This document shows positions 29,904 to 44,350 of a stretch of DNA of 64,000 nucleotides, piece by piece (position 1 is the first letter of the stretch; each line of letters starts with the position of its first letter). The stretch spans positions 837,501-901,500 of the forward strand of contig NZ_AP026867.1 of the NCBI RefSeq assembly GCF_026000115.1, in the 5' to 3' direction. A program made the position numbers and the translations under genes. This DNA is from Aureispira anguillae. Its GTDB lineage: Bacteria; Bacteroidota; Bacteroidia; Chitinophagales; Saprospiraceae. The notes under the pieces were generated by a model that did no database searches, had not been told where the DNA came from, and worked only from the letters and a program-made list of their open reading frames with translations.

Positions 29904-30701
29904 ATGCGTAATAATTCACGTTCTTTATTTCAAGTTGTAACATTATCATTAATACTCGTTTTTTTCTTTGCTTGTGAACGAGTGATTGATACTTTAAACC
30001 CGATTACATTTGAATATTACCCCGTAGAAGAGGGCAAGTACAAGATTTATCAAATAGATTCTATTGTATACGATGAATATAATTGTACAGTTCAAACCAA
30101 CAGTTATCAGATAAAAGAAATCACAGGACCAAAAGGAACTGATGGGGAAGGAGATGTTTTTCACAGCATTCAACGTTATTATCGAAAAGATAGCACAGAG
30201 GCTTGGGCATTACAACACATCTGGACAGAAAAAATCGAGGACAACCAGTTGCAGCGAGTGGAAGATAACCAACGAATGATTAAGATGGTTTTTCCTGTAC
30301 AAGAAGATCGCCATTGGGATGGCATTGTATACATTCGTAGAGATACTTTAGTGCCTATTCGTGGTGGAGCTATTGATATGTTCAAAGATTGGGATGATTT
30401 TGTTTGCCAAGATGTAGGAAAAACGTTTATTGATACCTTGGCTAATATTGTTTACCCTGATGCTGTTAAAATTATGCAAGTGGACAAAACGAATAATATT
30501 GAGCGCCGTTTTTCAGTAGAAGTTTATGCCAAGCATATAGGAATGGTATACAAAGAAATGAGAATACTAGATACCCAATGCCGCCCTCCTGGAACTTGTA
30601 CGGGGAATAGTGATATTGCTTCTTGTATTCTCAAACCTTGGCACATCAAAGCAGAAAAAGGATTTATTCTCAAACAATCCTTGCTGGAGCATAACTATTA
30701 G
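29904..30701 (+). CDS. hypothetical lipoprotein, 265 residues
   Basis: The N-terminus has a lipoprotein-type signal ending FFFACERV (Cys near residue 24). The body is beta-rich and begins FEYYPVEEGKYKIYQIDSIVYDEY, a pattern shared by many Bacteroidota lipoproteins of unknown role; Cys residues near the C-terminus (DTQCRPPGTC, ASCILKPW) may form disulfides. The next gene starts 9 bases after its stop codon on the same strand, so the two are probably cotranscribed. No catalytic motif was seen. Confidence 0.75.
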   Translation: MRNNSRSLFQVVTLSLILVFFFACERVIDTLNPITFEYYPVEEGKYKIYQIDSIVYDEYNCTVQTNSYQIKEITGPKGTDGEGDVFHSIQRYYRKDSTEAWALQHIWTEKIEDNQLQRVEDNQRMIKMVFPVQEDRHWDGIVYIRRDTLVPIRGGAIDMFKDWDDFVCQDVGKTFIDTLANIVYPDAVKIMQVDKTNNIERRFSVEVYAKHIGMVYKEMRILDTQCRPPGTCTGNSDIASCILKPWHIKAEKGFILKQSLLEHNY

Positions 30702-30710
30702 GATTCATTT

Positions 30711-32195
30711 ATGAAAAAGGATAGTCTTTATATGCTTATTGAGGGAATGACAAAACAAGAAAAAATTTTTTTTAACCGTTTTGCTCAAATTGCCAACAAT
30801 AAAAAAAATAAGCACTATCTGACCTTGTTTAAACTAATCGAAAAGCAATTAAAGAAGAACAAAGCAATTGATGAAGAACAGCTAAAAAAGAAATTCCCTT
30901 ATTTGTCGGTAGAAAAGCGATACTTGATGAATATTTTGATCAAATCGCTTACTGCTTTTCACGAAAATGATGAAGGGTTTTATGCTGTTAAGACATTAAT
31001 TAAGCAGATTTATATATTGGTTGATAAAGGTATTTATCTAGAAGCTCAAAAATTACATGCCAAAGCGGTGAAAATCGCAGAACGATATAATCTATTTGAA
31101 GATTTAATGAGTTTAAACAATATAAGGGTAGCGTTAAGGGGGCATAGAGATATTTTATCAGATCTAAATATAATGAAAGCGATTATTGACGACCAAAACA
31201 AGAAAATAGGGCAGCTTCTTAACTATGACCAGTATCGCTTGTATATGTATCAACTTCAGGATTGGATTCGTACAAATGGTTATATCGATACTCCTCAAAA
31301 AGAAGCAGAATTTAATCAATTGATCGCTTCTCCTCTAATTGACAATATTAGTGAAGCAAAATCAGATAGAGCTATAGAGCTTTTTTACAATGCTAGAATC
31401 TATATCTGGGGATTGCAGTATAATTTTAGAAAAAAGTACGAAGAGTTTCAACAGCGGATTGCTTTTATGAAGGAGCACCCTCATCTGTATAGCCCCTACA
31501 ATAAAATTATTTTTACCAACAACTATTTAATGTGTTGTATTCGGGTGGGGGCAATAGAAGAATGCGAAGAACAGCTTTTAGTTTTGGAGGAATATATCCA
31601 ACAATACCCCTTAAGTTTGGAGCGGGTTATGGTCTGTTTATATACTAGAAAGTTAGAATTTTATTCTCATATCGGAGCGTTTGAAAAAAATAGAGCTTGG
31701 CTATTGGAGGTAGAAAAAGGACTGTATTTGTGTCAAAACCTTACTCCTTTGCAAAGTGAGTACCTTTATTTGTATTTGGGAAGAGCTTATATGGAATTGG
31801 GAGACTATGAAAAAGCATTGGAGCACTTGTATAAAGTAGGAGCGTTTAAAATTTTTGACAAAACCTCTGTTACCTATTCGGCGGCAAAATTATTAGTTCT
31901 TATCTGTTACTATGAATTAGGTTGGTACTCCAATTTAGAATCTGCACTCATCTCTTTTTATCGGCAAATTCGAAAAGCCAAGGTGCAATATAAACTCTAT
32001 GAATCTTTGCTTAAGTATTTAAAGTTGGGCATTGCGAATAGGGATTTGACCAATAAAAATACACTCTATTTTTTCTCTTCAGAATGGGAAAATATTAGCC
32101 CTGATTCTAGAGAAAGTATACCTTTTCAATTTTTTCATTATAAAAAATGGCTGAGAAGTAAAATCGAAAATAAGCCACTTGATACCTATTTTTAA
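30711..32195 (+). CDS. helical-repeat protein of unknown function, 494 residues
   Basis: This is a soluble, almost all-helical protein without a signal peptide. The N-terminal region (LIEGMTKQEKIFFNRFAQI) resembles an N-terminal 'TK-x-E-K-x-x-F' motif I associate with a family of uncharacterised Bacteroidota proteins. The rest reads as degenerate TPR-like helix pairs (for example YLYLGRAYMELGDYEKALEHLYKVG at about 350-375). It follows the lipoprotein gene by 9 bases. A scaffold or regulatory role is possible. I cannot assign a function. Confidence 0.75.
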   Translation: MKKDSLYMLIEGMTKQEKIFFNRFAQIANNKKNKHYLTLFKLIEKQLKKNKAIDEEQLKKKFPYLSVEKRYLMNILIKSLTAFHENDEGFYAVKTLIKQIYILVDKGIYLEAQKLHAKAVKIAERYNLFEDLMSLNNIRVALRGHRDILSDLNIMKAIIDDQNKKIGQLLNYDQYRLYMYQLQDWIRTNGYIDTPQKEAEFNQLIASPLIDNISEAKSDRAIELFYNARIYIWGLQYNFRKKYEEFQQRIAFMKEHPHLYSPYNKIIFTNNYLMCCIRVGAIEECEEQLLVLEEYIQQYPLSLERVMVCLYTRKLEFYSHIGAFEKNRAWLLEVEKGLYLCQNLTPLQSEYLYLYLGRAYMELGDYEKALEHLYKVGAFKIFDKTSVTYSAAKLLVLICYYELGWYSNLESALISFYRQIRKAKVQYKLYESLLKYLKLGIANRDLTNKNTLYFFSSEWENISPDSRESIPFQFFHYKKWLRSKIENKPLDTYF

Positions 32196-33999: not shown

Positions 34000-34359
34000 C
34001 TAAAAAATATCTTCTTCATCTTCTTGCCAATAAGGTTCTACAATGCACAAAAATACCAAATCTATATCGCCTGTATTTTTGATATATTGGGACGCATTGG
34101 CAGGCACTAAAAAAACATCATCTTTACCCACCTCCAATGAGGTATCATCAATATACATTTCGCCTTTTCCCTCCAAAATATAGTAGGTTTCTGAACTTTT
34201 GAGTCGATGGGGTAAAGAGGCTTTTCCAACCTCTACTTTGGCATGTGCTAGGCTATAACCGATCTTTAAATGATCCTGTAGAGGGTGCATAAGCTCTCGT
34301 AGTTTGGTATGATCGCCTGCTACAAATTCTGGTGCTTGTGCTAATTTTTTGTGAAACAT
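34000..34359 (-). CDS. cupin-domain protein
   Basis: This is a 119-residue single-domain cupin. The second half has the cupin order: YYILEGKGEMYIDDTSLEVGKDDVFLVPANASQYIKN. Motif 1 is atypical: the metal-binding His positions are largely replaced (SSETYYILEG), so metal binding is uncertain. Small cupins of this kind include sugar-isomerase-like and mannose-6-phosphate-isomerase-like proteins. No neighbour indicates a substrate. The start ATG at 34359 gives a normal N-terminus. Confidence 0.8.
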   Translation of the reverse strand: MFHKKLAQAPEFVAGDHTKLRELMHPLQDHLKIGYSLAHAKVEVGKASLPHRLKSSETYYILEGKGEMYIDDTSLEVGKDDVFLVPANASQYIKNTGDIDLVFLCIVEPYWQEDEEDIF

Positions 34360-34769: not shown

Positions 34770-37382
34770 ATGAAACCAAAAAAAATCCAACAAAAATTGC
34801 CCGTTAGTTACTTGATGTTTACTTACTGGGGGCGAATCAATAGATTGACCTATTGGCATGCTACGCTATTTATTTGGCTTGCATTTTATGTGTTGTACAA
34901 TCTTATTGAATATGTGTTTGGGACAGCAGCCACTATTGTTTTATACCCTTTTCTGTTTTGGACGTTACTGGCAACGGCTAGTAAACGGCTGCACGATGTT
35001 GGAAAATCTGCTTATGCGATTGGGTGGATTGTCGTACCAATTGTAGGGCCGCTTTGGTTAGTATACCAACTGGGATTTAGAAAAGGAACCGTAGCGACCA
35101 ATTCGTATGGAAATAATCCAAGGTTTGCCGATGATTATTTACAGGTGACCGATGAAAAGGAAATCCATCATCTAAAGACAAAGGAGCGCATCATCAATGA
35201 TGTAACCACCTTAAATCCTATTATTGTTGCCCAAGTAAAAGTTCCCAAAACAATACAAGAAGTTCAACAGATTATCCAGCAAACAACGGGAACGATTTCT
35301 ATCGGAGGGGGGCGTTTTAGTATGGGAGGACAAACCGCAAGTACCCAAAGTACTCATTTGGATATGCGACAACTCAATCAAGTTGTTGCTTTTTCTAAAG
35401 AACATAAGACGATAACAATACAGAGTGGAGCACGTTGGTGCGATTTGCAAGCTTATGTAGATGCCCATGATTTGAGTGTTATGATTATGCAAACCTATGC
35501 CAATTTTACGGTAGGAGGTTCTGTAAGTGTAAATGTACATGGTCGATACATGGGCTTAGGGCCTATTATTTTATCCATTTTATCGGTTGATGTTGTTTTG
35601 GCAGATGGTCGCTTGGTACATGCTAGTAGAACGGAGCAAGCCGATTTATTTTTTGGAATTGTTGGTGGTTATGGAGGATTGGGAGTATTGGTGCAGGTTG
35701 AATTTTCTCTGGCAGATAATATTCCAGTCAAACGAATTCACCAAAAGATGGATCGTAGTGAATACTGGGCATTTTTTGATAAACAGATACGTTTTAATCA
35801 AGAGGCGGTTTTTCACAATGCAGATATGTATTTGCCATCTATCCAGAAAATTAATGCCGTTACTTGGGTCAAAACAGACGAACAGCCCAATGTAAAACAT
35901 CGATTGATGCCTTTAAAGGCTTCTTATCCTTTGGAGCGTTATTTTTTTTGGATGACTTCAGAGTCGCCCTTTGGAAAGTGGCGAAGGGAACACATTATTG
36001 AGCCCTTGTTTTATAGAAATAAACGAATTCATTGGAGAAATTATGAGGCAGGTTACGATGTGGCAGAGTTGGAGCCCAAATCAAGAAAGAATAAAACCTA
36101 CGTATTGTTAGAATACTTTGTTCCTGTGGCAAAATTTGATGCCTTTTCAGTAACCATGAATGAAATCTTTTTGCGGCATAACGTAAATGTAATCAATATT
36201 TCTATCCGACATGCTATTCCTGATACAGGAGCCTATTTGGCTTGGGCGAGAGAAGAGGTGTTTGCTTTTGTTGTCTATTACAAACAAGGAACAAGCCCTG
36301 CTGCAAAAGGAGGGGTAGCTGTTTGGAACCGAGAATTAGTAGATGCGGTTATTGCAGTAGGAGGAACTTATTATTTGCCCTATCAAGCCCATGCAACCAA
36401 GGAACAATTCTTAAAAGCTTATCCCAATGCGCCTCAATTATTTGCTTTAAAAACTCAATTAGATCCTGATTTTAGATTTAGAAATGTCATTTGGGATCAT
36501 TATTATCAGCCTAAAAAAGAACCAACAATGCCAACCAATAGTGAATTTCAACAAGTGTTTTCAGATACAAAACAAAGAGATGCCTTTTTTCATTTTTTGC
36601 AAGTGGTATACAATCTTTATCCAGAAGAAAAATTTCACCATCTAATTGTAGAGGCTTGTAAGGAAGAGACATCTGACCAAGCTATTTACAAATGGGTACA
36701 AAGTCGTTTGCCTAGTATTAAGCCATTTTTGGCAGATTTGCGGTATGGATTGCCTGCGCTCAAGAAGCAAAAACAAGAAATGTCAAGGCAAACCTTGGAA
36801 TTATTGGATGGGCAAAAAACAATTGATGGTTATATAGAAATCGGAGCCCCTGCACGTTATGTTTCGGATTTAAGGAAGCATATAAACCTAAAAGGGGATT
36901 GTTACATTATTCATGATAGTGAGCCAGATTACTCGATTCCGTCTATGCTAGAGCGGGGACAAATTAGAAAATTAGGAAAATACATTCCTTTAGACTATAA
37001 ACCAATTGATCCTGCTGTTGTTGCCAACGAAAGTATTGATGTGGTGACCTGTTTTATTGGCTTGCATCATTGTCCAATCGATCAACTAGTGCCTTTTGTC
37101 CAATCGATTCATAGAGTTTTACGCAAAGGAGGAAAATTTATACTTAGAGATCACGATGCTGGAAACGAGCAAATGGCAACCTTCTGTTCTTTGGTGCATA
37201 CTGTATTTAATTTAGGGCTGAATGAAAGTTGGGAGTTTGACCAAGCCGAGTTCAGAAATTTTAAATCTATAGAAGAGTGGTGTAGCTTTATAAGTAGCGT
37301 AGGATTTAGAGATGCGGGTAAGAGAATCTTGCAACACAAGGACCCTTCTGATAATACATTGGTCTCATTGATAAAAGAATAG
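34770..37382 (+). CDS. triple fusion: DUF805 membrane domain, FAD-linked oxidase, SAM methyltransferase
   Basis: This 870-residue protein joins three domains that are normally separate. Residues 10-120 are a DUF805 membrane domain (YWGRINRLTYW ... KRLHDVGKSAYAIG ... FRKGT, two or three helices). Residues about 145-560 are an FAD_binding_4-type oxidase: SIGGGRFSMGGQTAS and GGSVSVNVHGRYMG form the FAD site; the position that holds a covalent-flavin His in related enzymes is Phe here, suggesting non-covalent FAD. Residues about 690-870 are a class I SAM methyltransferase-like domain (IEIGAPARYVSDL ... SIDVVTCFIGLHHC ... VLRKGGKFILRDHD). The linker at about 590-680 is helical. The next gene starts 2 bases after the stop. 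The substrate is unknown; membrane-bound oxidation plus methylation of a lipid or polyene is an inference. Confidence 0.85.
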   Translation: MKPKKIQQKLPVSYLMFTYWGRINRLTYWHATLFIWLAFYVLYNLIEYVFGTAATIVLYPFLFWTLLATASKRLHDVGKSAYAIGWIVVPIVGPLWLVYQLGFRKGTVATNSYGNNPRFADDYLQVTDEKEIHHLKTKERIINDVTTLNPIIVAQVKVPKTIQEVQQIIQQTTGTISIGGGRFSMGGQTASTQSTHLDMRQLNQVVAFSKEHKTITIQSGARWCDLQAYVDAHDLSVMIMQTYANFTVGGSVSVNVHGRYMGLGPIILSILSVDVVLADGRLVHASRTEQADLFFGIVGGYGGLGVLVQVEFSLADNIPVKRIHQKMDRSEYWAFFDKQIRFNQEAVFHNADMYLPSIQKINAVTWVKTDEQPNVKHRLMPLKASYPLERYFFWMTSESPFGKWRREHIIEPLFYRNKRIHWRNYEAGYDVAELEPKSRKNKTYVLLEYFVPVAKFDAFSVTMNEIFLRHNVNVINISIRHAIPDTGAYLAWAREEVFAFVVYYKQGTSPAAKGGVAVWNRELVDAVIAVGGTYYLPYQAHATKEQFLKAYPNAPQLFALKTQLDPDFRFRNVIWDHYYQPKKEPTMPTNSEFQQVFSDTKQRDAFFHFLQVVYNLYPEEKFHHLIVEACKEETSDQAIYKWVQSRLPSIKPFLADLRYGLPALKKQKQEMSRQTLELLDGQKTIDGYIEIGAPARYVSDLRKHINLKGDCYIIHDSEPDYSIPSMLERGQIRKLGKYIPLDYKPIDPAVVANESIDVVTCFIGLHHCPIDQLVPFVQSIHRVLRKGGKFILRDHDAGNEQMATFCSLVHTVFNLGLNESWEFDQAEFRNFKSIEEWCSFISSVGFRDAGKRILQHKDPSDNTLVSLIKE

Positions 37383-37384
37383 CC

Positions 37385-38476
37385 ATGAATCGATTAAGAC
37401 TATTTATTGTTGTATTAGCGTTGATTGCAGGCTGTATTCACTATGCCAAAGAACAACGTATGCCATCTACCTACCCAGAAGGGGAAGGCTTGCTTATTGA
37501 TAAAGCATGGTTAAAAAGTACTGAAAAATCAATTGTACCTGCTCCAAATAAGAGAGCCGCAGACAATACATTTTGGGTATATCCCGAATGGTATTTAGTG
37601 CATAGTCCTGCTGAGCAAGCCGATTATTTCAAGCATCACACAGCCACAACTTTATCTTATGTAACCCATCACGAACAGTTTTGGGACAGTTACCGTATTC
37701 TATCAGAGCAGATGGAAGGCAATTTTAAGTTAAATAGTGAGTATCAAACCATGGTGATGGTAATTGGATGGAGTACATCGACCGAATACTTAATGAAAGC
37801 TTGGTATGAGAAAGTTATTGGACGAATGACAGATACAGGAGTACCCCTCACAGAAGAAGATCAATTTAATGCAAAATACATGCAGGATTATGTTGATTTT
37901 ATTCGAAAAGAACCTTGGTTTAATTTTGATTATTGGAACCAACTTCAACGTTTATGGACAAGCACTGCTTGGTTTGGAGCCAACTTTTTTCGGAAGTGGG
38001 AACGAAAATATGTTCTAACATCTGAATTTTTGTTCAAAGCAGCTTATGGCAAATTGATGAAAATGGGGTCAGAATCTGTTTTTGGGGAGGAGTTGCTAAC
38101 AACCGTTGTGGTGACGGATCAACTGCCTCAAAATTTAGATGCCAATACTCAACTCATAGAGCAGTTGCCAAATGGTTCGGCAATTGTTAGTTTGCCTCGT
38201 TATGCGGCATTTGTTCCAGCTATAACCACTTTGGCAAAACAAGGGATTCAAGTAACCGAAATTGCAGGAAATCGCAGCGCTATTTTGGTAAGTGTTTTAG
38301 CTGAAAATGATTTTGATTTTGCATTAGAGCATTGTCAAGTGCTATTTCGACAGCCCATCACCTCTAAAGAAAATGAACAGCGCATTGTTTTTGTAACGCC
38401 TGTACCACAACTTTGCAATACACTCAATACCTTAACCCAAAACAAGATTAAGGTAGAGCATATTTATGATTTTTAA
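37385..38476 (+). CDS. lipoprotein-type partner of the oxidase/methyltransferase fusion
   Basis: This 363-residue protein starts 2 bases after the fusion gene and must be cotranscribed with it. The N-terminus MNRLRLFIVVLALIAGC carries a good lipobox (IAGC, Cys 17), or alternatively a short membrane anchor. The body is rich in Trp, Tyr and His (TFWVYPEWYLVHSPAEQADYF, TTLSYVTHHEQFWDSYRI, WFNFDYWNQLQRLW), suggesting a helical domain binding a hydrophobic ligand or a cofactor. The C-terminal 100 residues read as two beta-alpha units (TQLIEQLPNGSAIVSLPRY; FALEHCQVLF). I do not recognise a family; its pairing with the fusion protein is the best clue. Confidence 0.8.
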   Translation: MNRLRLFIVVLALIAGCIHYAKEQRMPSTYPEGEGLLIDKAWLKSTEKSIVPAPNKRAADNTFWVYPEWYLVHSPAEQADYFKHHTATTLSYVTHHEQFWDSYRILSEQMEGNFKLNSEYQTMVMVIGWSTSTEYLMKAWYEKVIGRMTDTGVPLTEEDQFNAKYMQDYVDFIRKEPWFNFDYWNQLQRLWTSTAWFGANFFRKWERKYVLTSEFLFKAAYGKLMKMGSESVFGEELLTTVVVTDQLPQNLDANTQLIEQLPNGSAIVSLPRYAAFVPAITTLAKQGIQVTEIAGNRSAILVSVLAENDFDFALEHCQVLFRQPITSKENEQRIVFVTPVPQLCNTLNTLTQNKIKVEHIYDF

Positions 38477-38511: not shown

Positions 38512-39999
38512 TTAAAAACGTTTATAGTGCTTAGATTTACTTTGATGAATAAGCTTAATCGCATTCTTTTCTATTTTAAAATATTGAGAACCCACTTTGA
38601 ATGCTTCGCCATCTTCTTTGTTGGCTAAGTCTGTAATATCATCGTCAATAGTGTGAATAGAGCCTTTGGTATAACGAGCCAAATAAATATAATCTAGATT
38701 AACCACATCCCCTTTGGCAATGCCACAAACAACTACCCGTACAGGTTTGCCCAATTTCATTAATCTAGGAATCAAGCGGAAATCTCTAACTCTAGAAAAA
38801 TTGTCAGCAATTAGAACCACCCCTTTGCAATTAGGGAATTTTTTTATCCCATAAAGAATAGCCTCAATGTCGTTTTCAGAGGCTTTGCCCCCTTGTCCAT
38901 TTCGCATAGCTTCAAAAGCCATTTCCTCGATTTCTTTTACATTGTCGGCACTGGTATAATAGCAACCACCAGAGTAACCCAAAGGACCATCAGGCTGGTC
39001 GTCTCCATCGTTAAAAAAGACAAACTTTTCGGTTGTGTTTTTTTGTATATGCCCCTTTAAGAAAAGTAAAGTTTGAGTAAGATAAGGATGCATACTGCCT
39101 GTTACGTCTTGTACCACAACATGATCTTCCCACCTTCCTAATGTTCGATTCATAACAGCATAAACCACAGAGTCTGAAGTGATTTCAGCGATAACTTTTT
39201 CAGGTTCAGGAGCGGCATCTAAATCGGGAACTTCACGCTCTGTAACGGTCATGATTTCTTCATACTTGGTTCGGTATTCTTTAGGGCGTTTAGGACCTTT
39301 GGTTTTAAATTTTTTGCCTTTTTTGCGTTTGTTTTTATTTTTAGCCAAGTACATTCCTGTCCAAAATCGTTTTTTCTTTTTGGTATAAGTCGTATCTAAA
39401 ACAATTTTGGTCGCTGTTGATTTATTGAGCAAGGTTTTGATTTTAGCTACTTCCTCATTGGTTTCCAATGTTCGAGTTTCTGGCTCATCCACCCGTAAAT
39501 CCATGGCTGTTCCAATCGTAATTCCATTTTTGGTCGTTACTCGATGAGGTTTGAGATAAATCACAAAACCATGAAAATAAGTTTGCGCTTCACCATAATC
39601 CATGGTTCCGTTTTGCGCCATCAAATTCCAGTCAATTAAGTTGTTGTTAAAGGCTTGTGGAAAGAATTTTTGGAACATCTCATAACGCTCTTTATTGAGT
39701 TTGACTTGATCAAAAGTCTTACTTCTTCTAAAAACAGTATAAACCAAGTCAATTCGTTCTATTAGCGTATCTCGCAAGGTATGAAATAAGGCTTTGTCCT
39801 CTTCTGTAAATAAGAATTTAGAATAGTTCATGGGCAGATAAATAATGTATTTACTCTGTCGTGAAGTATCGTATTGAGGGAGTTCAAATTCTTTTGCCTT
39901 AGATAGCAACTCAGGAGTAACAACAATGCTATCCATTTCCTGGCTGTGTGCAAATTGTCCAATGAACAATAATAGGAATATAAGCGCCTTAATCTTCAT
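38512..39999 (-). CDS. exported VWA-like domain protein
   Basis: The 495-residue product begins with a signal peptide (MKIKALIFLLLFIGQFAHSQ); the ATG at 39999 is chosen over an upstream start at 40110. A central very basic tract (about residues 210-240, many Lys) follows a helical domain. The C-terminal half is a von Willebrand A-like fold with a MIDAS-type motif DVTGSMHPY (D-x-T/S-x-S) and further loops KFVFFNDGDDQPDG and GVVLIADNF. Metal-dependent protein binding in the periplasm is likely. It is convergent with the oxidase operon, with only 35 bases between the stops. No known operon partner is visible. Confidence 0.78.
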   Translation of the reverse strand: MKIKALIFLLLFIGQFAHSQEMDSIVVTPELLSKAKEFELPQYDTSRQSKYIIYLPMNYSKFLFTEEDKALFHTLRDTLIERIDLVYTVFRRSKTFDQVKLNKERYEMFQKFFPQAFNNNLIDWNLMAQNGTMDYGEAQTYFHGFVIYLKPHRVTTKNGITIGTAMDLRVDEPETRTLETNEEVAKIKTLLNKSTATKIVLDTTYTKKKKRFWTGMYLAKNKNKRKKGKKFKTKGPKRPKEYRTKYEEIMTVTEREVPDLDAAPEPEKVIAEITSDSVVYAVMNRTLGRWEDHVVVQDVTGSMHPYLTQTLLFLKGHIQKNTTEKFVFFNDGDDQPDGPLGYSGGCYYTSADNVKEIEEMAFEAMRNGQGGKASENDIEAILYGIKKFPNCKGVVLIADNFSRVRDFRLIPRLMKLGKPVRVVVCGIAKGDVVNLDYIYLARYTKGSIHTIDDDITDLANKEDGEAFKVGSQYFKIEKNAIKLIHQSKSKHYKRF

Positions 40000-40216
40000 A
40001 ACCGTTTTAATTTTTAGGGAGCAAGGTACATAAGATTTTAGGAAATTATGCACGTTTAAAATGATTATTTTGCAATTTGCTTGTGCCTCTTGCTCCGCAG
40101 ATGATTCCAATAAATTTAATTAAGGAACTGCTATCCAGTTTTTGGGGAACAGCGAAAAGACCTATCCCTGCGTTATAAGAGTAGGCAGGCATGCTAAACC
40201 ATAAAACCGCCCTTTT

Positions 40217-41593: not shown

Positions 41594-44350
41594 ATGCGAA
41601 TAAAAATGTTGCTTAATCAGTTGTTGCCTCAAACTAAAGAGTCAATTGGTTTTATTGCGTTCAAAGCTTTTTTTAAGAAAGAACTCAATCGATTAAGAAA
41701 AAGCAAAAAGCCAACCAACTGTTTCATTATTCACGATTTTGTTTATCCTGATAAGCCTGAAAAAAAATTGCCTATTGTTGTTTTTGGAAAGCCAGAGGGA
41801 GAATGGAAAAAATTTATGCTAGGCAATGAAGGAATTAAGAGAAAGCAACGAGATGCTGTTATCGGAACCTGTGAACTACTCGCAGGAAAAGAAGGGGAGA
41901 CATTAGCATTTACCCTAAAAAAGGGAAAGGCTAGACCTAAAATGTTGACCCGAAAAATTAATAAATTTTTGATGCCCCAAGCAAAGGGATTTTGTATTGT
42001 TAATGGAGAACAACCAAATGAAAGGCTCTACGAAAAAGATTCCGATGTCGATACGGTTATAGAAGAATTGGACAAGAATAAATCCATGAAAACCTACCTG
42101 AAATTGGAGCGTGCTTATGGGAAAATACTTGCAATTGTAGCGGTTAAACCAGAAGCAGCAAGCATTAATATTTTAAAAATGTTAGAACAAATTGGAAGCT
42201 GGTATGAAGGGTATAAGCAGCTTCCTGAAAACATAAAAAATAAGCATCAAAAAGAATATGGTTTAATTGAAGAAATTGAACGTAAATTTGAAAAGCTACT
42301 CCACCAAGTTCAGGAATCAGAAACGCTAATAAAAGGAACCTTTGTAGAGGAAAACGATGAAGATTTGGAAGAGGTGGATGCAGCAGAGACTTCGATTGAT
42401 AATTCGGAGGATTATAATGACTATGATGATGAGCAGCTAGGGAGTGATATGGGCTTGTTAAGCCAAGAAGAAGCGGTTGAGATTGGTCATAGCTTTGCAG
42501 AGACCAAACGGGAGTTAGCGGTCGTTGCTATTGAGTTGAAAAAACTCAAAACTAAGCGCAACTTATCCGCTAAAGAACAACAACAACTTCAGGACTTAAC
42601 CGCAAAAGAGGCAGCATTGGCTCAGGAAAGAGCTCAGGAAACTCATAGCTTATTTGAATATTGGAAAAAAGAAATGGGCTGGGCTGCTAGTTCCCCAAGA
42701 GAGATTTTACAGCATTATGATAACAACTGGTTCAAGTTTAAAGAAGCATTGGCTTATTGGGATCAATCCAATCCTAAAGAAGATTTTTATTCAATTCAAT
42801 TGGCCGCATTAGAGGAACTGTTGCATTACCGAAAAAAGGTAGTGGATCAACTGTTGGAAGAGACCAAGAAAGTGGTTTATCAACAAATAATGGCAAAGCC
42901 TACTGTTGATACCTTTGACCAAAAAGAAATCAAAGCTTTTGCTTTTGGTAGTACAACTCCAACCTCTGATTATGATGTAACCTTCCAAATTGATCGCTAT
43001 CCTCAATATGAATATTTATGCGTTAAGTATTTTAACGATACTTTTGTGCAGCGATTTGGAGTTAATGCAGGGATGTTGTTTGATACCAATGTTTATACCA
43101 CTGGTTTTATGCCCACCACGACAAAAGAGGGAACACAGGCTTATAAGGATAAATTGAATCCTTTTGGTAAAGTTTCGGAATTGCCTGCCAGCGAAAAATT
43201 AATCTTGGATAAGACTAGGCGCAAAAAAGGACAGATAGAACTGGCTTTGTCTTTGTCTGCGGTGCTGCAATATGTTACCACTAAAAAAGAAATACAGACC
43301 TTAAAAGGTGAAACGGTAAATGCTGTGATTGCTAATGTTAAAAAGCTAAAACCCCAACCCACCCATTGGGAAGGAAAAGAATGGGCTACGGCGGCGATCC
43401 AAAAAGAATTAATAAAGGTGGCAAGGGAAGATATGGTCGAAATTTTTAAATTGGCAGAGGGCTATGTCAAGAAGGTTGAAGAAGGGATTAAAGAAAAAGA
43501 AGTACAGTTGGCTGCTACTCAAAACTCAACCGTTGACCCTAAGCATTTAGAAGCGCAGGCGAAGGATTTATTGTATGTGGAAACGCTGGAAAAAGTATCT
43601 GTTCTACTAGAACAAATAGAAGCCAATAAACAGGAAATAGGAAAGGCTAAAGAGGCTGGTCTTGAGGTGCCTCAATTGTTTCAAGAACGGGCTCAATTTA
43701 TATTGGACTTCAAAGAGGCACAAGGCAAGGCATTGATGTATGCCAATGAGGCTTATTTTAGTGGAGGACCTGCTTTGCATGTCGTAAAAGGAATGCAAGG
43801 AGGGGGAGCTATAAAATTAGGTCGTCAACAAAAAATGCAGTCCATGTTGATGAACATCGGTTATCAATTGCAACATTTTAACGAGCAAGCAGAGGAACAT
43901 GGTTTGGGTAGAGCTGTCCTTGGAACCTCTAAGTATGGGCAACGGGTTGCCAATCTAACAGAGCGTTCTTCTAAGCAAGAGCAAGAAGTAAAAGAGAGCA
44001 TCAGCGGAATTCATGGCAAGGCATCTACCAATATGGAAGATTTTATGAAAGGAGAACAAGCTGGTTTTAATTTAAATACATTTATGGCTTTAGAAGATCA
44101 AATTGTCTCTGATTATAAGAAAAATGATTTGGATTATCCTACACCTTCTAGTAAGGACAAAGGAGCAGAAGAGGCTGTAAAGGCTCATTTCCCGAATCAA
44201 TCAAATGAAGAAATACAAGCCAGTATTTTGGCAACCTTTACTCGATCTGCTGCTAGGGTTTTTGGTCCTTATTATGTGGATAAATATCAAGAAAATGAAA
44301 AGCGCCGCCAAAAAGATGGGGCGTTGATTAGCCCTTTGACTTTTTGGTAG
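41594..44350 (+). CDS. large protein with nucleotidyltransferase-like motif and coiled coils; candidate effector
   Basis: This 918-residue protein has no signal peptide or membrane helix. Residues 1-150 form a basic domain (FFKKELNRLRKSKKP ... LPIVVFGK). An acidic linker (about 260-285, many D/E) is followed by a long coiled coil (about 300-360). At about residue 450 there is FGSTTPTSDYDVTFQID, which resembles the G-S...D-x-D core of nucleotidyltransferases, but with a shorter spacing than usual. The C-terminal 400 residues are charged and helical, with the segment SGGPALHVVKGMQGGGAIKLG. The gene is isolated and ends at a perfect 15-bp hairpin. Possible roles are a toxin or effector domain protein. 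I cannot tie it to a named family. Confidence 0.7.
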   Translation: MRIKMLLNQLLPQTKESIGFIAFKAFFKKELNRLRKSKKPTNCFIIHDFVYPDKPEKKLPIVVFGKPEGEWKKFMLGNEGIKRKQRDAVIGTCELLAGKEGETLAFTLKKGKARPKMLTRKINKFLMPQAKGFCIVNGEQPNERLYEKDSDVDTVIEELDKNKSMKTYLKLERAYGKILAIVAVKPEAASINILKMLEQIGSWYEGYKQLPENIKNKHQKEYGLIEEIERKFEKLLHQVQESETLIKGTFVEENDEDLEEVDAAETSIDNSEDYNDYDDEQLGSDMGLLSQEEAVEIGHSFAETKRELAVVAIELKKLKTKRNLSAKEQQQLQDLTAKEAALAQERAQETHSLFEYWKKEMGWAASSPREILQHYDNNWFKFKEALAYWDQSNPKEDFYSIQLAALEELLHYRKKVVDQLLEETKKVVYQQIMAKPTVDTFDQKEIKAFAFGSTTPTSDYDVTFQIDRYPQYEYLCVKYFNDTFVQRFGVNAGMLFDTNVYTTGFMPTTTKEGTQAYKDKLNPFGKVSELPASEKLILDKTRRKKGQIELALSLSAVLQYVTTKKEIQTLKGETVNAVIANVKKLKPQPTHWEGKEWATAAIQKELIKVAREDMVEIFKLAEGYVKKVEEGIKEKEVQLAATQNSTVDPKHLEAQAKDLLYVETLEKVSVLLEQIEANKQEIGKAKEAGLEVPQLFQERAQFILDFKEAQGKALMYANEAYFSGGPALHVVKGMQGGGAIKLGRQQKMQSMLMNIGYQLQHFNEQAEEHGLGRAVLGTSKYGQRVANLTERSSKQEQEVKESISGIHGKASTNMEDFMKGEQAGFNLNTFMALEDQIVSDYKKNDLDYPTPSSKDKGAEEAVKAHFPNQSNEEIQASILATFTRSAARVFGPYYVDKYQENEKRRQKDGALISPLTFW

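Follow-up and report, generated by a model that had tools for sequence, protein, structure and literature searches.

We analyzed a 64,000-nt window of the Aureispira anguillae contig NZ_AP026867.1 (all positions below are window positions) in which a fusion gene encodes, in order, a DUF805 membrane domain, a flavin adenine dinucleotide (FAD) oxidase domain and a predicted S-adenosylmethionine (SAM)-dependent methyltransferase (MT) domain, and is followed by a gene whose product we refer to as the partner. The set formed by the oxidase, the MT and the partner is real, conserved and undescribed in the literature that was searched, and it combines known domain families with an orphan partner. The features of the two genes are as follows:

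34770..37382, + strand: fusion protein, DUF805 - FAD oxidase - methyltransferase, 870 amino acids (open reading frame (ORF), Pfam and Aureispira orthologues)
34818..35111, + strand: DUF805 membrane domain, residues 17-114 (Pfam PF05656, E 4.1e-15; AlphaFold helices 25-50, 52-76, 81-88 and 92-103)
35181..36512, + strand: VAO/FAD_binding_4 oxidase domain, residues 138-581
35316..35318, + strand: codon of Phe183, the covalent FAD-histidine position (alignments to Alphaproteobacterial homologues; a relative's alignment to cytokinin oxidase)
36543..37379, + strand: predicted class-I MT domain with helical lead-in, approximately residues 592-870 (Methyltransf_11; modelled helices and strands 592-869)
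36837..36860, + strand: SAM motif I, residues 690-697, EIGAPARY (EIGSTGRY in most relatives)
37385..38476, + strand: partner, 363 amino acids (ORF; AlphaFold model; downstream of the MT in 42/42 loci)
37388..37456, + strand: predicted N-terminal anchor helix of the partner, residues 2-24

The fusion ORF runs from an ATG at 34770 to a stop codon at 37380-37382 and that of the partner from an ATG at 37385 to a stop codon at 38474-38476, which leaves two bases between the fusion stop and the partner ATG, exactly as the original prediction had placed them. The predicted order of a DUF805 domain, an FAD_binding_4 oxidase and a SAM-dependent methyltransferase was likewise borne out by a search with the Pfam hidden Markov models, in which all three scored above their cut-offs: DUF805 at residues 17-114 (E 4.1e-15, 56.6 bits versus a gathering threshold of 25.7), FAD_binding_4 at residues 155-285 (E 6.4e-21) and Methyltransf_11 at residues 751-792 (E 1.3e-06, 29.4 bits versus a cut-off of 21.2).

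The fusion is not a private architecture; in the search of other genomes it proved to be one arrangement of an operon found over several phyla. A scan of genome contigs with an alignment of the partner found 130 relatives, of which 80 loci were analyzed. The oxidase, the MT and the partner occurred together in 42 of the 80, and DUF805 was detected in 39 of these 42; the MT-bearing loci belong to the Bacteroidota, Pseudomonadota, Verrucomicrobiota, Spirochaetota and Acidobacteriota. They included the following: 11 triple fusions (DUF805-FAD-MT), 19 loci with DUF805-FAD and then the MT, eight with DUF805 and then FAD-MT, one in which DUF805, FAD and MT were all separate genes, two with FAD-MT in which DUF805 was not detected, and one with an FAD piece and then the MT. 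A further 28 loci had the FAD protein, with neither MT nor DUF805 detected, and the other 10 had no FAD in the stretch examined, these being two Aureispira paralogues, a Pedobacter sp. V48 remnant, contig ends and some Alphaproteobacteria. In the Pedobacter sp. V48 locus (L065:5768-6927), where no oxidase or MT was found, a DUF805 piece runs straight into the partner, and this looks like a decayed copy.

The partner was downstream of the MT and on the same strand in all 42 MT-bearing loci, and in 37 of them the two genes overlapped or were separated by at most 50 bases, the larger overlaps being ORF calls made too long. The exceptions in spacing were L035 (frame break), L055 and three Spirosoma loci (L039-L041), in which a small additional gene (cluster 27) separates the MT from the partner. 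In a reverse scan, an MT profile matched 12 of the 120 genomes searched around a Mucilaginibacter and five of 145 around a Massilia, and in all 17 loci found in this way the oxidase lies upstream of the MT and the partner lies downstream of it. Eleven were identical in sequence to loci of the partner scan and six were new (L118, L121, L128 and L131-L133); the new loci showed the same oxidase-MT-partner order, with the genes of L132 split over frames. The tight coupling to the partner that had been proposed was thus apparent from both directions. In a wider phylum scan, the MT and the partner were each matched in one of 395 genomes, the window's own. The system is therefore patchy, and this patchiness, together with the mixture of phyla, suggests that horizontal transfer may have occurred. 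On a Legionella lytica plasmid (L114:5905-7350), an oxidase that is 48.6% identical adjoins a multidrug SMR transporter gene, and no MT or partner was seen among its annotated neighbours.

Full-length orthologues of the fusion, with 75-80% identity, were present in five of the nine Aureispira genomes searched (own genome counted); three of the further orthologues were intact at 79-80% identity and one at 75% was broken near its end. The break in the G004 orthologue is a loss of frame close to where the MT part ends. No full-length fusion was found in any of 51 further genomes from this family or order, and the partner was detected in the same five of the 60 genomes as the fusion, directly behind it.

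In a tree of 68 FAD sequences, an MT-type (41 rows) and an Alphaproteobacterial type (27 rows) were separated with support of 100/100. On well-supported branches of the MT-type, the triple-fusion label must change three times or more, from which it follows that the parts were repeatedly fused or split. This recurrent fusion is evidence that the oxidase, the methyltransferase and DUF805 work together.

A Phe at the covalent-His position of the oxidase was another element of the original prediction, and it was confirmed by the alignment of Phe183 with the His of the Alphaproteobacterial homologues. The equivalent Phe of a relative (L058) aligns with the His of cytokinin oxidase, and the His of alditol oxidase lies one place earlier there. 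Phe was found at this position in 40 of the 42 MT-type loci, the remaining two being fragments, and in nine of these 40 a His is one residue before it. The oxidase has the FAD_binding_4 domain and the fold of the VAO/PCMH family and lacks the His of the covalent FAD link, which is found in only part of that family; we infer that it binds FAD non-covalently. Among the Alphaproteobacterial relatives, where neither MT nor DUF805 was detected, the oxidase paired with the partner retains the covalent-His motif in 27 of 28 cases and has a twin-arginine translocation (Tat) signal in 23 of 28; a Tat motif was found on 0 of 40 MT-type oxidases.

The MT region was modelled with high confidence (the structure-search rows stop at approximately residue 581, before the MT) and, with Methyltransf_11 above its cut-off, was assigned as a predicted class-I SAM methyltransferase, SAM binding by the Aureispira copy being putative. 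Throughout the family its motif I is short, with EIGSTGRY in 32 of 43 rows, and the Aureispira form (EIGAPARY, four of 43 rows) is degenerate, as would be expected if, at least in Aureispira, the domain no longer methylates and has a structural or regulatory role within a redox enzyme. We consider such a loss improbable, because the Glu and Gly of motif I, a following Asp and many polar residues (HH, RDH) do not vary among 21 MT members, including that of the window, which suggests that the active site is kept. A different role, in the tailoring of a lipoquinone or isoprenoid ring, would make the MT a distantly related C-methyltransferase of the UbiE/COQ5 kind, working with a flavoprotein that hydroxylates or dehydrogenates the ring. 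Consistent with this, UbiE/COQ5 matched three of the 21 members (best E 6.8e-06) and there was a weak match to the rhodoquinone protein RquA (E 0.005). However, Methyltransf_11 matched all 21 members scanned at E <=0.01 with a better best E (4.2e-09), the RquA score was 16.6 bits against a cut-off of 175, and the nearest families of the oxidase are sugar and polyol oxidases; we consider ring tailoring improbable.

The partner was correctly described as uncharacterised, in that no Pfam, PHROGs or PADLOC family matched it and the best NCBIfam model was at chance level (E 0.17). Its AlphaFold model (pLDDT 94.4, pTM 0.90) consists of an N-terminal hydrophobic helix, a helical domain (61-232) and an alpha/beta domain (239-361), and gave no clear PDB match in the structure search. 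Residues invariant over 60 partner sequences in the C-terminal domain include R272, Y273, N296, E358, H359 and D362. The N-termini have a hydrophobic helix, and in some Pseudomonadota a signal that looks cleavable, which identifies the partner as a protein with an anchor or a signal peptide. It had also been called lipoprotein-like; a lipobox-like string, ALIAGC, is indeed present locally, but the lipobox cysteine was found by pattern in only four of 59 N-termini, three of them from Aureispira, and a conserved lipoprotein family was therefore rejected. In 14 Alphaproteobacterial loci, a homologous small membrane protein (cluster 3) is located before or near the partner; the one member scanned matched DUF4383 (29.2 bits versus 27), and the same annotation is given in Ruegeria. 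On a Ruegeria pomeroyi megaplasmid (L113:5716-8659), the FAD oxidase, the DUF4383 protein and the partner abut and are annotated without a specific function.

A second partner copy was identified in Aureispira (four of the 60 genomes searched, e.g., L030 / G000:C1:4002562-4003653), and in all four of these genomes the genes that follow it encode, in the same order, a protein of the Lgt family and one of the radical SAM type. In a scan of these proteins from one genome, the former matched PF01790 (E 9.6e-21) and the latter scored 324 bits for TrsS (cut-off 490) and 288.5 bits for Tes (cut-off 450). The gene upstream of this copy has transglutaminase-like matches below cut-off. No relative of the radical SAM and Lgt pair was found in the remaining 78 of these 80 partner loci, which include the 42 oxidase-MT loci (phmmer, E 1e-3). 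Besides the anchors, this setting is the sole hint that points to membrane lipids.

Our best explanation, which we put forward tentatively, is that the system is a self-contained inner-membrane tailoring unit for an amphipathic substrate. The DUF805 helices would hold two enzymes at the cytosolic face, the SAM methyltransferase and an FAD oxidase that is of the same type as DprE1, galactonolactone dehydrogenase and alditol oxidase and would bind its FAD non-covalently. There, the oxidase would take a hydride from a hydroxyl-bearing (or similar) carbon of an amphipathic, membrane-embedded substrate and the methyltransferase would next methylate the oxidised product or a position close by. The partner, exported and anchored in the membrane, would act from the opposite side, where it would most likely bind this lipid-like substrate or its product. 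We assign the enzyme to the cytosolic face and the partner to the opposite one because five stand-alone FAD-MT proteins start only 5-14 residues before the opening motif of the oxidase domain and SAM is cytosolic. The membrane-bound, two-step modification of a hydrophobic compound that was originally predicted fits this evidence, qualified by the one SAM-motif glycine missing from the Aureispira MT.

In the structure search, whose rows cover approximately residues 129-581 of the fusion, the closest solved relatives of the oxidase were DprE1, galactonolactone dehydrogenase and alditol oxidase. Identity with DprE1 was rejected, given an NCBIfam equivalog score of 68.2 bits versus a cut-off of 500 and, in a profile alignment, an invariant Tyr538 at the position of DprE1 Lys418, a residue important in the active site. 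Alditol oxidase and galactonolactone dehydrogenase, whose substrates are soluble polyols and lactones, had nearly equal fold scores, and the system could accordingly consist of a dehydrogenase and a methyltransferase that are tethered to the membrane but act on a small soluble molecule (sugar, lactone, polyol or aromatic pollutant); the anchor would serve only to let electrons reach the respiratory chain, and the partner would be an exported sensor or binding protein. The patchy, accessory-like distribution (MT profile in 1/395, 12/120 and 5/145 genomes) and the Legionella lytica plasmid oxidase without an annotated MT or partner neighbour are in keeping with such an enzyme. We regard it as unlikely, since the repeated DUF805 fusion, the exported partner and the Lgt/radical SAM setting of the paralogue point to a membrane substrate.

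Several points nevertheless weigh against an inner-membrane tailoring unit. The substrate of DprE1 is not transferable to the fusion because Tyr538 stands at the Lys418 position; in the Aureispira motif EIGAPARY, Ala replaces the second Gly and is preceded by Pro; and the link to lipids comes from one paralogue cluster in one genus. The FAD protein of the Alphaproteobacterial partner is mostly Tat-exported, and so mostly on the partner's side, unlike the cytosolic placement proposed here, and no MT was detected with it, such that the side or role of the partner may differ. The putative topology of DUF805 is argued from charges, and we infer the chemistry, the substrate class, the order of the steps, the sidedness of the fused enzyme and the role of the partner.

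The statement that no pathway with this architecture has been described agrees with our search of open PubMed Central papers, in which none was found on DUF805 with FAD-binding and methyltransferase parts or with an FAD-binding oxidoreductase, and none on DUF4383 with an FAD-binding oxidoreductase. It is conceivable, if short of probable, that the loci represent an undescribed pathway for modification of a membrane lipid (or lipid-linked sugar) in at least five phyla, with a new partner family that works with two dissimilar flavoenzyme systems: in one, the oxidase is cytosolic and non-covalent and is accompanied by an MT; in the other, it is covalent and mostly exported by Tat, and is accompanied by a membrane protein of the DUF4383 type. 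What was a single odd gene becomes a four-part system that is defined and testable and occurs in several natural arrangements, which gives DUF805 a concrete setting and adds an orphan family whose model is confident and has no clear match to a known fold. Mucilaginibacter, Spirosoma and Massilia are carriers that can be grown, and a modified lipid or cofactor that is new might be discovered in them.

Upstream of the fusion is a divergent cupin gene (34000-34359), which is also beside the fusion in Aureispira loci L002-L004 and was not seen in L005. A 918-amino-acid ORF (41594-44350) and the ORFs at 29904-30701, 30711-32195 and 38512-40110 had no Pfam match at E 1e-4, and neither the fusion protein nor the partner had a PADLOC (anti-phage defence) match at E up to 0.01.

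With respect to known systems, galactonolactone dehydrogenase and alditol oxidase are fold relatives of the oxidase that to our knowledge have no DUF805 or MT part; alditol oxidase acts on soluble substrates with covalent FAD, whereas the fusion has Phe183 at the covalent-His position. TmsA/TmsB and UfaA-type pairs of an oxidoreductase and a methyltransferase, which make branched or furan fatty acids, resemble the fusion in joining a flavoprotein with a SAM methyltransferase, and their targets are membrane lipid chains. The MT of the TmsA/TmsB type is of the cyclopropane-synthase kind, and fatty-acid methylation of this type was rejected as no cyclopropane-synthase Pfam family matched with an E of 1 or lower. 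TrsS and the tetraether synthase Tes (PMC9433317) are similar only to the radical SAM neighbour of the partner paralogue, which scored below both cut-offs. From DprE1 (PMC6128881), the fusion differs in being joined to DUF805 and an MT and in having Tyr538 for Lys418.
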